A program made the position numbers and the translations under genes. Below the pieces are notes generated by a model. It made no database searches. It was not told the origin of the DNA and saw only the letters and a program-made list of their open reading frames with translations. From Rhizobium sp. AC27/96 (GTDB taxonomy: Bacteria > Pseudomonadota > Alphaproteobacteria > Rhizobiales > Rhizobiaceae): 64,000 nt of DNA. Of the stretch, positions 44,816 to 48,767 are shown piece by piece (the stretch's first letter is position 1; each line of letters starts with the position of its first letter). The stretch is from NCBI RefSeq assembly GCF_001692325.1, contig NZ_LXKN01000018.1, positions 682,001 through 746,000 of the forward strand. The letters are read 5' to 3'.

Positions 44816-45469
44816 TTATTCTGCAGGTGCGTCGGCTTTTGATTTTCGGCCTCGTTTCGGTGCTGCAACCTCTGTCGCAGCAACAGCAGCCGGTTTGACC
44901 TTGGCGGCCTTTGGCGCCGGTTTGCTTGGGGCAGACTTCGCAGCAGCCGGCTTGGCTGCAACAGCTTTTGCTACGGCGGGCTTTGCTGCGGCGGGTTTTG
45001 TTACAGCGGCTTTGGTTGCAGCAGGTTTGGCGGCGGCAGGTCTAGCAGCAGCCGGCTTTGCCTTTGCCTTCGCAGCCGCCGCGCTTCCCTTTGCCTTGCC
45101 CGCATTCAACGACGCGACACGGCGCAAACGGTTTTTCTCAAGCGCCTGCTGGAAGCCAGTATCTTTCTCCGCGTGATGCGCGAGATCGTCAAGAAACTCC
45201 GACACCTGCTTGATGGATTCGACAACGATATAGTTCAGCCCCGCGCCTGCATTGATAGAGTCGCGACCGACCGTGACGCCGAAGCCGCCGGGAACACGCT
45301 GAAACCATGTGGAACGCCACTTCTTGAAGCCGGCGATGTCTCGCTCATACTCCTCAAGATATCCCTTCTGTTCTTCTACTCTAGCCCGAAAGGTATCAAC
45401 TACATTCCGCGCTCCAGCCTTCGGCTTTTCAGCCTTCTTTGAAGACCATTTCTCCAGAAAGTTTGCCAT
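44816..45469 (-). CDS. unrecognised protein with histone H1-like Lys/Ala/Pro tail
   Basis: Protein of 217 aa. Residues 1-120 are helical and charged with a Trp/Phe patch (FKKWRSTWFQRVPGGFGVTV); residues 123-217 form a low-complexity tail built from repeated Lys-Pro-Ala-Ala-Ala units and ending in KRGRKSK, which contains the RGR core of AT-hook motifs. No signal peptide. The tail resembles bacterial histone H1-like and AlgP-type DNA-binding tails, so a nucleoid role is plausible; a phasin-like helical protein is the alternative. The ATG at 45469 is used, GAAGGGA lies upstream. Confidence 0.7.
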   Translation of the reverse strand: MANFLEKWSSKKAEKPKAGARNVVDTFRARVEEQKGYLEEYERDIAGFKKWRSTWFQRVPGGFGVTVGRDSINAGAGLNYIVVESIKQVSEFLDDLAHHAEKDTGFQQALEKNRLRRVASLNAGKAKGSAAAAKAKAKPAAARPAAAKPAATKAAVTKPAAAKPAVAKAVAAKPAAAKSAPSKPAPKAAKVKPAAVAATEVAAPKRGRKSKADAPAE

Positions 45470-45984
45470 TGTGTGTTTCCCTTCAAGTTGGCGTTCCGTC
45501 CAAGCGGCCGTCTGCTTTGGAAAAGCGAAACGGTACTCCTCCACGTGGATAACGTGCTATATGTATAAGATACGTATATAATGGCAATATTGGTCGCCAT
45601 AATTGTCGGGTAACGGCTTTCCCGCGCAGGCAAGCTTTGGCCTTCCAATCGCGCTAACAAGGACGTCGATGTACATTCGACCGCTGATGATAGTATCTGG
45701 TTGATCTTTTGCTGGATGCTTTGCGGTGCTCTGTGACAATCACGAAGGCTGCCAAGCTCGCGCCTGGGTGCGAAATCCTCTTCTTCTACTGCATCCATAC
45801 TTCATGAGATCCGCTTAATGCAGCGACGTGACCTCGCATTGAAGTGGCGCGCATCTGTCAGTTCGTTGTTCGGCAAACTCATGACCGGCTGCTTGAAACG
45901 ACAGCGGGAACCGAGAGGTTCTCTCGGTTCCCGGCATCATGCTTGTCGATTGTCACTACATGACGATGCAGCGCTTCAGGCCGC
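45470..45984. other. intergenic region upstream of the tail-protein gene
   Basis: No gene supported. Near 45542-45580 there are two dyads in the promoter zone of the minus-strand gene: CACGT/ACGTG separated by five bases (45542-45556), and an AT-rich imperfect palindrome containing TATATGTAT and ATACGTATATA (45558-45580). The far end holds the fdhA terminator hairpin. Confidence 0.4.
45905..45933 (-). terminator. terminator hairpin of fdhA
   Basis: CGGGAACCGAGAG (45905-45917) and CTCTCGGTTCCCG (45921-45933) form a perfect 13-bp stem with a 3-nt loop, 52 bp after the fdhA stop. Confidence 0.7.
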
Positions 45985-47175
45985 TCAAGCAGCCTTCAGC
46001 AGATCGCCATGCGGATCGAGGACGAACTTCGTCGCGGCACCCTGATCGAAGCTCTCATAGCCTTGGGCGGCATCATCAAGCGAAATGATCTTGGCGTTGA
46101 CGATATCGGCAATCGGCAACCGATCATGCAGGATCGCCTGCATGAGCTGCCGATTGTACTTGATAACAGGCGTCTGGCCCGTGTGGAACGACTGCGCCTT
46201 CGCCCAGCCCAGACCAAAGCGCAGCGACAGGCTGCCCTGCTTGGCCGCAGCCTCGGCGGCACCCGGATCTTCGGTGACGTAAAGGCCGGGAATGCCGATC
46301 GAACCGGCCGCGCGCGTAATCTCCATCATCTGATTGAGCACGATCGCCGGTTGTTCGCCGCCCGCATGACCGCGCGCCTCGAAACCAACGGCGTCGATGG
46401 CACTGTCCACCTCGTTGACGCCGACGACTTGCGCGATCATGTCGCCAAGGCGATCGCTCTTGGAGAGATCAATCGGCTCGAAGCCGACATTGGCCGCATG
46501 TGCAAGCCGATCCTTGTTGAAGTCGCCGATCATGACGACAGCAGCACCCAGGATGCGGGCGGAAGCAGCGGCAGCGAGACCAACCGGACCGGCACCCGCG
46601 ACATAGACCGTCGACCCTACGCCGACGCCGGCGCGAACAGCACCGTGAAAGCCGGTCGGCAGGATATCGGACAGCATCGTGAGATCGCGGATCTTCGCCA
46701 GGGCCTGATCGCGGTCGGGGAATTTCAACAGGTTGAAATCCGCGTAAGGCACCGTGACGTAGCGCGCCTGACCGCCGATCCAGCCGCCCATATCGACGTA
46801 GCCATAGGCGCCGCCGGCGCGCGCCGGATTCACCGTCAGGCAAACCCCGGTATCCTGCGATTTGCAGCAACGGCAACGGCCGCATGCCACGTTGAACGGC
46901 ACGGAGACGATATCGCCGATCTCGAGCATCTCGACATCGATGCCCTTTTCGATGACCTGGCCGGTGATTTCATGCCCGAGTATCAGGCCGGGCATGGCCG
47001 TGGTGCGTCCGCGCACCATGTGCTGGTCCGATCCGCAGATATTCGTGGAGATCACCTTCAGGATCACGCCATGCTCGATGCGGCGGCCATCCGGCGCCTC
47101 CAGTTTCGGGTCGTCGATATCGCGAACCTCGACTTTGCCGGGCCGCATATAGACCACGCCTCTGTTCCCAGTCAT
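45985..47175 (-). CDS. fdhA: glutathione-independent formaldehyde dehydrogenase
   Basis: Zinc-dependent medium-chain dehydrogenase of 396 aa that oxidises formaldehyde to formate with tightly bound NAD, as in Pseudomonas putida FdhA (about 398 aa). The catalytic zinc region is TNICGSDQHMVRGRT with GHEITG downstream; the structural zinc cysteines are in CGRCRCCKSQDTGVC; the Rossmann motif is VAGAGPVGLAAA. The ATG at 47175 follows AGGAGG. A cobalamin riboswitch lies about 240 nt upstream on the same strand, with no other intact gene between. Confidence 0.9.
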   Translation of the reverse strand: MTGNRGVVYMRPGKVEVRDIDDPKLEAPDGRRIEHGVILKVISTNICGSDQHMVRGRTTAMPGLILGHEITGQVIEKGIDVEMLEIGDIVSVPFNVACGRCRCCKSQDTGVCLTVNPARAGGAYGYVDMGGWIGGQARYVTVPYADFNLLKFPDRDQALAKIRDLTMLSDILPTGFHGAVRAGVGVGSTVYVAGAGPVGLAAAASARILGAAVVMIGDFNKDRLAHAANVGFEPIDLSKSDRLGDMIAQVVGVNEVDSAIDAVGFEARGHAGGEQPAIVLNQMMEITRAAGSIGIPGLYVTEDPGAAEAAAKQGSLSLRFGLGWAKAQSFHTGQTPVIKYNRQLMQAILHDRLPIADIVNAKIISLDDAAQGYESFDQGAATKFVLDPHGDLLKAA

Positions 47176-47415
47176 GCCATCTCCTCCTTGGTTTAACGCT
47201 TGATCATCATTGCCCACAATTCCTCATGGGCATGTTCGGATCGGCCCGCTCCTCAACGGGCTGAACAACAGCAAATCGGTCACGGCGACCGCATCGGCGG
47301 CGCCCTGTCCGGCACGTCCATGACTGATGCGATATGGCGAGACGTGAACGGAGTGATCTTGCGGCCCCTCCCTTCGCCTCCCGATCGCCCTCCGCGATCA
47401 ATCGAGTCTGTCGTC

Positions 47416-47590
47416 AAGGCTGGTTTCCGGGCTTCGGACCTATCCCTCTGGATGGCCTCGACACCTTCCCGGTCAAGAGACCAGTGGCATTGGTCGAGAC
47501 TTTCGGTCCGCTACCGTTGCGGGGGCAGCACAGGCCTATGACCGGTTTCCCAATTATCCATCCGGACTCTATCCGGATGGCACCTTGAAC
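47416..47590 (-). ncRNA. cobalamin (B12) riboswitch
   Basis: Read on the minus strand the element shows, in order, the conserved blocks of the cobalamin riboswitch: AAGGTGCC (P1/P2 entry), GGGAAACCGGT, the core GCTGCCCCCGCAACGGTAGC, the B12 box GCCACTGG, CGGGAAGGTG and the closing CCGGAAACCAGCC. All blocks are present with normal spacing, so the aptamer looks intact. It would control transcription or translation toward lower coordinates, where the next intact gene is fdhA. Between 47176 and 47415 I see only short broken frames and one hairpin (GCCCG/CGGGC near 47252), so the original target may have been lost. Confidence 0.9.
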
Positions 47591-47717
47591 ATGTCCAGAA
47601 GATCACGCCCGGTGATGTGGCGCGCACAGGAAAACGACATCAGCGCCCTGTAGGACGACATGAAGCGTTTTCGTCTCGCATTGCCGTCCCAGCCGGATTT
47701 TGGCCCTGAACGGACTC

Positions 47718-48722
<1,005 letters not shown>

Positions 48723-48767
48723 GGGGTACTCCACTTCGGAATTTTATGAGGATGATGATGCGGGATG

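Follow-up and report, generated by a model that had tools for sequence, protein, structure and literature searches.

The formaldehyde dehydrogenase gene fdhA of the window (the whole 64 kb stretch of DNA analysed here, G000:C18:682001-746000, in a host genome of 7.29 Mb) is preceded by a cobalamin riboswitch, and a riboswitch of the same subtype precedes a gbcA-like gene elsewhere in that genome, whose product would demethylate a betaine without B12. We consider it probable that at low B12 betaine demethylation moves from a corrinoid to an oxygenase route, and that fdhA is turned on to clear the formaldehyde. The evidence is the structure of the element, the presence of the same element in front of the two genes, and its distribution among related genomes.

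A cobalamin riboswitch upstream of fdhA

The element is a real cobalamin riboswitch. The initial annotation had read all of the conserved B12-riboswitch blocks on the minus strand between 47590 and 47416, and the Infernal run with the Rfam cobalamin model that it proposed bears this out: cmscan gives a full-length, slightly longer RF00174 (Cobalamin) match at 47401-47602 on the minus strand (model positions 1-189; 95.5 bits against a gathering threshold of 31.5, E 1.6e-22). RF00174 is the sole Rfam family that cmscan finds in the window at gathering thresholds. The features of the locus, in the direction of transcription, are as follows.

47718..48734, minus strand: upstream gene for a sugar-type ABC transporter ATPase (PF00005 and PF08402)
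47401..47602, minus strand: cobalamin riboswitch aptamer RF00174 (cmscan; locus L006, 136.9 bits with subtype model R1, the window sequence being itself among the 22 R1 build members)
47513..47529, minus strand: conserved core GCTGCCCCCGCAACGGT, including L5 (read in the sequence)
47481..47488, minus strand: GCCACTGG block (sequence and alignment)
47418..47433, minus strand: B12 box of the subtype, AGCCCGGAAACCAGCC (the same in 22/22 aligned sequences)
47383..47399, minus strand: P13 hairpin GATCGC-GGAGG-GCGATC (helix 10 of the alignment)
47373..47382, minus strand: conserved stretch GGGAGGCGAA after P13 (GRGAGGYGAA in 8/8 aligned fdhA leaders)
47244..47261, minus strand: hairpin-forming GCCCGTTGAGGAGCGGGC (GAGGAGC kept in 8/8 fdhA leaders)
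47181..47189, minus strand: strong Shine-Dalgarno sequence AAGGAGGAG of fdhA (sequence and leader alignment)
45985..47175, minus strand: fdhA, glutathione-independent formaldehyde dehydrogenase, 396 aa (TIGR02819; PDB 1kol, 4jlw)

We aligned the window riboswitch with six other fdhA riboswitches and 15 from gbcA leaders (22 sequences in all). The core GCTGCCCCCGCAACGGT is unchanged in 21 of them, with a single change in the fdhA copy of G079. The consensus structure has 54 pairs, 19 of which show changes on both sides (the shuffled mean is 11.0, and none of 500 shuffles equals the observed number), and 98.4% of the alignment cells are paired as against 24-49% with slid partners, a control that favours the consensus structure because it was derived from that very alignment. 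The P13 hairpin, an addition to the blocks named in the initial annotation, lies beyond the RF00174 match and shows compensatory changes among the relatives; three of its seven pairs are changed on both sides and 99.4% of its cells are paired. Its loop is, by eye, partly complementary to L5, and the two are a candidate kissing loop. P4 of the window copy has one C-U mismatch, present in 1 of the 22 aligned sequences. The element shares with RF00174 the full-length match, the core, a B12 box and a P13 whose loop is partly complementary to L5; the window and gbcA copies differ from it in their variant box, AGCCCGGAAACCAGCC, and in having no insert after P4. The window leader is predicted to bind cobalamin.

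The next intact gene is indeed fdhA, which had been placed about 240 nt downstream and begins 226 nt from the end of the aptamer. Its reading frame is intact from the ATG at 47175 to the stop at 45985, its product scores 716.7 bits against NCBIfam TIGR02819, above the cut-off of 636.95, and its structural matches are PDB 1kol and 4jlw (E about 1e-190).

B12 riboswitches and B12-linked enzymes of the host

Cobalamin riboswitches control B12 supply and B12-independent isozymes. The host genome has six RF00174 matches above cut-off and two weaker ones. Behind the six lie metE, nrdI-nrdE, a GbcA-like Rieske oxygenase gene with that of a GbcB-like reductase, fdhA, and two transporter loci; one of the weaker matches has, by eye, cobU- and cobW-like genes behind it. 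The B12-dependent partners MetH (at C58:49476) and NrdJ (at C1:750596) are both present. There are also two MttB proteins, on contigs C58 and C75, which match PF06253 with 764.3 and 684.4 bits (gathering threshold 25). The structural matches of the C58 protein are 4yyc, 2qne and the glycine betaine methyltransferase 9yce, and separate corrinoid-, pterin- and homocysteine-binding modules (MtgC-, MtgD- and MtgE-like) are encoded within 14 kb of it. The C58 corrinoid protein is called MtgC-like here; NF047996 (MtgC) is its best family, at 212 bits and short of the cut-off of 370.

The oxygenase of contig C1 also misses the cut-off of the family it matches best, GbcA NF058607 (533.9 bits, cut-off 670), and we therefore name it GbcA-like. 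The reductase behind it has GbcB NF058606 as its best family and misses that cut-off as well (384.7 bits over a 362-aa stretch, cut-off 500); a GbcB-like gene lies behind gbcA in 74 of 80 loci from named genomes. The best solved relatives of the oxygenase include 3vca and 4qup (E about 1e-159), which we take to be stachydrine demethylases. In view of these relatives and of the missed cut-off, its substrate may be glycine betaine or a stachydrine-type betaine. Judged by its genes, then, the host genome appears to have both a corrinoid betaine system of the MtgBCDE type and an oxygen-dependent, GbcAB-like N-demethylase. If MttB and the gbcA-like product both act on one betaine, the gbcA-like gene would fit the class of B12-independent isozymes; FdhA itself is by annotation no isozyme of a B12 enzyme.

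A riboswitch subtype shared by gbcA and fdhA

The gbcA and fdhA riboswitches belong to one subtype. Both carry AGCCCGGAAACCAGCC as their B12 box and have no insert after P4, and the host's other four copies above cut-off have the box AGCCAGGAGACCTGCC and the insert. Rescoring 8 of the 22 build members with model R1 yields 137-168 bits; the gbcA copy from G030, a sequence outside the build, reaches 167.6 bits, and the host's four other riboswitches above cut-off score 30-49 bits. S. medicae USDA1037 (L321) is one named genome with the switch at gbcA. In named genomes (587 gbcA-like loci were found and 80 of them kept, with possible overlap with the coded genomes used below) an R1 match stands just upstream of the gbcA-like gene in 71 of the 80 loci, 67 of these matches scoring over 100 bits and four 71-74 bits; at E 1e-9 the other nine have no R1 match, and one of the nine, L352, starts 41 nt before the gene.

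The subtype is also seen before other genes. In G206:C23 (L266 4984-6204 and 6725-6872) a subtype riboswitch of 141.6 bits precedes a second Rieske oxygenase gene, whose product is about 33% identical to the GbcA-like enzyme and perhaps serves another N-methyl compound. In G204 and G206 (L234, L230; L265 near 5237 minus, L266 near 6725 minus) similar-looking ORFs of about 85-90 codons follow right after subtype riboswitches, as judged by eye. Weaker R1 matches (61-75 bits) are found in L267, L269, L271 and L272 before ribonucleotide reductase genes of another class; that of L267 encodes an NrdA-type, B12-free enzyme.

Co-occurrence with the corrinoid betaine enzyme

The genus sample comprises 100 genomes including the host, all with a GbcA-like gene. 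Riboswitch states were taken from leaders fetched per gene, and the gbcA leader is readable in 99 genomes (the contig of G003 ends there). It carries the riboswitch in 24 of the 99, at 107 bits or more by nhmmer in 23 and at 53 bits in G059. Strong MttB matches (762-777 bits) occur in 25 genomes, namely these 24 and G003, so that the gbcA riboswitch is present in 24/24 genomes with strong MttB and 0/75 without; if any PF06253 match is counted the figures become 24/26 and 0/73. The two additional genomes are G066 and G080, in which MttB is more distant (587 bits) and the gbcA leader keeps no more than a remnant of the switch. On a quick tree of gbcA DNA, with the distant MttB uncounted, riboswitch and MttB change three times and on the same branches: that of a 68-genome clade, that of the pair G036/G056, and that of the five genomes G004, G043, G066, G077 and G080. 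We read these coinciding changes as probable losses. A pair test on the gbcA tree gives p 0.5, with only 2-3 independent pairs, at which significance is unreachable. A B12-box remnant stands before gbcA in all five genomes of the last group, G066 and G080 have a remnant before fdhA too, and R1 finds a partial match at gbcA in G036 (21.8 bits) and a doubtful one in G056 (13.4 bits).

FdhA is encoded by 79 of the 100 genus genomes, and its loci (the window and 78 fetched ones) carry a full-strength switch in four cases, a weaker match (17-77 bits, E 0.011 or better) in 25 and none in 50. By motif search the core or the box of the weaker matches is altered or missing, and we therefore read them as apparently decayed remnants. 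The full-strength switch is present at fdhA in 4 of the 8 FdhA-encoding genomes with strong MttB and in none of the 71 without it (Fisher p 4.7e-5, which ignores kinship). The remaining 75 of the 79 are these 71 and four with MttB (G002, G017, G089 and G090), in which the switch at gbcA is still there. With 75 of 79 genes free of a full-strength switch, fdhA has uses outside B12 control; from this comparison, B12 control appears to be one state of fdhA among several, and its absence the common one. At the cut-off used, 17 of the 25 strong-MttB genomes have no FdhA, and in these formaldehyde must be removed otherwise. In L079, L086 and L090, from genomes without strong MttB, the riboswitch region before fdhA retains a hairpin-like piece, GGAGCCCGGAAACCAGCTCTTT, which may have gained another role.

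The family sample comprises 151 genomes of 109 genera, two of which, G000 and G028, it shares with the genus sample. A GbcA-like gene at E 1e-160 or better is present in 54 of the 151, and among these 36 have both the gbcA riboswitch and MttB, one only the riboswitch, two only MttB and 15 neither (uncorrected for kinship). The genome with the riboswitch (74 bits) and no MttB is G192; those with MttB and no gbcA riboswitch are G188, whose enzyme is 57% identical, and G200. In the 37 genomes with the riboswitch it lies 104-196 nt from gbcA. MttB is found without a GbcA-like gene in 72 family genomes (110 minus 38). FdhA, here at a cut-off of E 1e-150, is encoded by 16 of the 151, and 15 of these 16 have a GbcA-like gene as against 39 of the 135 others (Fisher p values for this comparison ignore kinship). 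Four family genomes have both FdhA and MttB, and a riboswitch precedes fdhA in three of them, directly in G000 and G204 and via one gene in G161; G246 has none. No R1 match stands before fdhA in any of the 12 family genomes with FdhA and without MttB. In L290 (G192:C32), from the genome with a 74-bit gbcA riboswitch and no MttB, the fdhA matches fall in two reading frames, and this fdhA looks to be decaying.

A model for the control of betaine demethylation and formaldehyde removal

Cobalamin riboswitches are known to repress the downstream gene in the presence of B12. Ample B12 would bind the leader RNA, P13 and L5 would pair as a kissing loop, and fdhA expression would stay low; a shortage of B12 would allow FdhA to be made. 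At low B12 the corrinoid betaine route would stop, and the same-subtype riboswitch at gbcA would release the B12-free oxygenase. The GbcAB-like enzyme should free formaldehyde, as demethylation of a stachydrine-type substrate would too, a by-product that FdhA, through the window element, would remove; fdhA would join the switch where it is linked to the same B12 signal. Here we infer ligand binding, the direction of control (off with B12), the substrate of the oxygenase and the mode of control.

A more specific and rather unlikely version of this model is that the gbcA/fdhA subclass reads the corrinoid form on which the MtgC-type betaine system runs, for instance methylcobalamin instead of adenosylcobalamin. 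If so, the cell would gauge how much its corrinoid betaine route can handle and would switch the whole branch together with formaldehyde disposal, and the switch would decay wherever the corrinoid route is lost.

The riboswitch-fdhA pair in other genomes

The initial annotation had offered two readings, a B12-controlled fdhA or an aptamer orphaned by loss of its cognate gene, and had proposed a comparison with related genomes for a gene between riboswitch and fdhA. That comparison, in which full-strength calls were made by R1 or the Rfam model, favours the first reading, through seven other loci and the covariation in P13, and makes the second less likely. The riboswitch lies directly before fdhA at further loci in G092, G019 and G079, of the window's genus, in G204, which belongs to another genus (118.8 bits, at 170 nt from fdhA), and in Shinella PSBB067, Shinella WSC3-e and Sinorhizobium RAC02, where the pairs sit on plasmids; Shinella WSD5-1 has a match identical to that of WSC3-e. 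Counted by genus code the pair is found in at least two genera, to which the named Shinella and Sinorhizobium records may add more. The upstream neighbours differ: a sugar ABC transporter gene in the window (by family), a beta-galactosidase-like gene in G092 and an aminotransferase-like gene in G019 and G079 (all three by eye), nrd genes in G204, and in RAC02 a binding protein gene behind sarcosine oxidase genes. An intervening gene of the kind envisaged does occur in G161 (L262 942-2000, contig C35), where a gene of the homocysteine S-methyltransferase family (PF02574) stands between a full-strength subtype riboswitch and fdhA; it possibly encodes a B12-free methionine or betaine step.

Other arrangements place fdhA near further B12- or betaine-linked genes. 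In S. zoogloeoides Teo12 fdhA lies behind a riboswitch-led nrd operon. In G204 (L261, G204:C1:62000-74000) one strand carries in succession the end of metE, a riboswitch (60 bits), nrd, a riboswitch, fdhA and a riboswitch match (46 bits). In Agrobacterium 1D1609 fdhA adjoins gbcA-gbcB-like genes, and in RAC02 a sarcosine oxidase gene is near it. A riboswitch-nrd-fdhA operon as a general rule was rejected, as only S. zoogloeoides shows one and fdhA of G204 is served by a separate switch; the 78 fetched genus fdhA loci contain no NrdE or NrdF match.

The neighbours of fdhA in G204 (where metE is also near) and in S. zoogloeoides, which are riboswitch-nrd and not gbcA, and the S-methyltransferase gene of G161 could also be accommodated by a link through folate, in which B12 shortage would upset the folate-methyl cycle, less tetrahydrofolate would capture formaldehyde and FdhA would be the outlet. 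We regard this as unlikely: the fdhA riboswitch is of the gbcA subtype and unlike those of metE and nrd, the full-strength fdhA switch of the genus is found only alongside strong MttB, and FdhA co-occurs with the GbcA-like enzyme.

Less probable still is an orphan aptamer that, its cognate gene lost, merely reads into fdhA without a selected function. The weaker matches before fdhA in 25 of 79 genus genomes, the intervening gene of G161 and the P4 mismatch of the window copy could all be taken in its favour, but the recurrence of the pair, directly linked at eight loci with differing upstream genes, makes it very unlikely. The conservation of P13 and the leader motifs, with covariation in P13, also argues against it, as does the fact that the four full-strength copies of the genus are in genomes that retain MttB and the gbcA switch.

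The fdhA leader and its mode of control

B12-dependent control of fdhA, the reading we prefer, would act through this leader, which has 226 nt between aptamer and gene. The stem of GCCCGTTGAGGAGCGGGC is visible by eye in 7 of the 8 aligned fdhA leaders, with a short form in L277 (G204), and this hairpin is possibly part of the expression platform. The fold of the leader as a whole (47150-47420) has ordinary stability (z -1.55, with 15 of 200 shuffles as good) and shows no clear platform. The initial annotation had raised the prospect of a transcription stop between 47175 and 47415; the one terminator-like site there, at 47291-47277, is weak and, by eye, not conserved in the aligned relatives, and an intrinsic terminator was therefore rejected as the expression platform. 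As neither the window scan nor inspection of the aligned fdhA leaders by eye found a conserved intrinsic terminator, control by translation or Rho is more likely. The idea of a small upstream ORF after P13 (an SD-like GAGG followed by ATG in G092, G019 and G079) was dropped because the window, Shinella and RAC02 leaders do not have that ATG.

That the riboswitch is active and serves a product of the spacer, with fdhA under its own promoter, is most improbable: the spacer does hold a 64-codon ORF with a TTG start (47207-47401), but its length varies among relatives, with many gaps, while P13, the GAGGAGC hairpin, the Shine-Dalgarno sequence and fdhA are kept, and a scan of 46900-47800 for sigma-70-like sites, the one promoter type it covered, found none. 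The upstream ABC transporter gene is judged to be outside the riboswitch-fdhA unit since, by eye, it is absent upstream of the pair in G092, G019 and G079. On the other side of fdhA, window positions 44816-45544 (minus strand) encode a protein of 242 aa that has a long tail rich in Ala, Lys and Pro and matches no Pfam family, and a similar gene follows fdhA in G019 (L126).

Relation to known systems and significance

The usual cases of isozyme control by B12 riboswitches are metE and nrd. The likeness to these is that a B12-free route would be on when B12 is short, and the host has riboswitches before both metE and nrd; fdhA differs in that it replaces no B12 enzyme and would instead clear the by-product that the replacement route generates. 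What seems to be new here, as far as gene content can tell, is that the target is not an isozyme but a safety step of the replacement pathway. Glycine betaine catabolism in Pseudomonas uses GbcAB-type demethylation and a glutathione-independent FdhA, the same pairing as here, and we know of no cobalamin riboswitch at the Pseudomonas betaine catabolic genes.

PMC3766115 treats isozymes of B12-dependent enzymes as an established category of riboswitch targets; the words 'betaine' and 'formaldehyde' are absent from its main text. MtgBCDE is described in PMC12478193 as a system for corrinoid glycine betaine demethylation in aerobic bacteria, and GbcAB as another betaine route, which yields formaldehyde; the host shares the make-up of the former in its MttB and MtgC-, MtgD- and MtgE-like modules within 14 kb. 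In the main text of that paper 'riboswitch' occurs a single time, within the title of a reference, and the passages covered show no B12 switching between the routes. The open PMC titles and starts of abstracts covered here mention no B12 riboswitch in front of gbcA or fdhA, and there is none in those parts of PMC12478193, PMC8123684, PMC3766115, PMC2573895, PMC12530212 and PMC12456013 that were covered. Table 3 of PMC2573895 does list, without interpretation, a cobalamin riboswitch before SMc00982 of S. meliloti, a gene that we would guess to be gbcA-like.

The switch in the window would control both the choice of pathway in osmolyte use and the detoxification that its fallback needs. Paired presence and decay of switch and corrinoid route would be a clear example of a riboswitch that disappears along with the pathway whose cofactor it senses. 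Rhizobia meet plant betaines, and the supply of cobalt and B12 in soil may vary, so the arrangement would bear on their C1 metabolism and perhaps on symbiosis.
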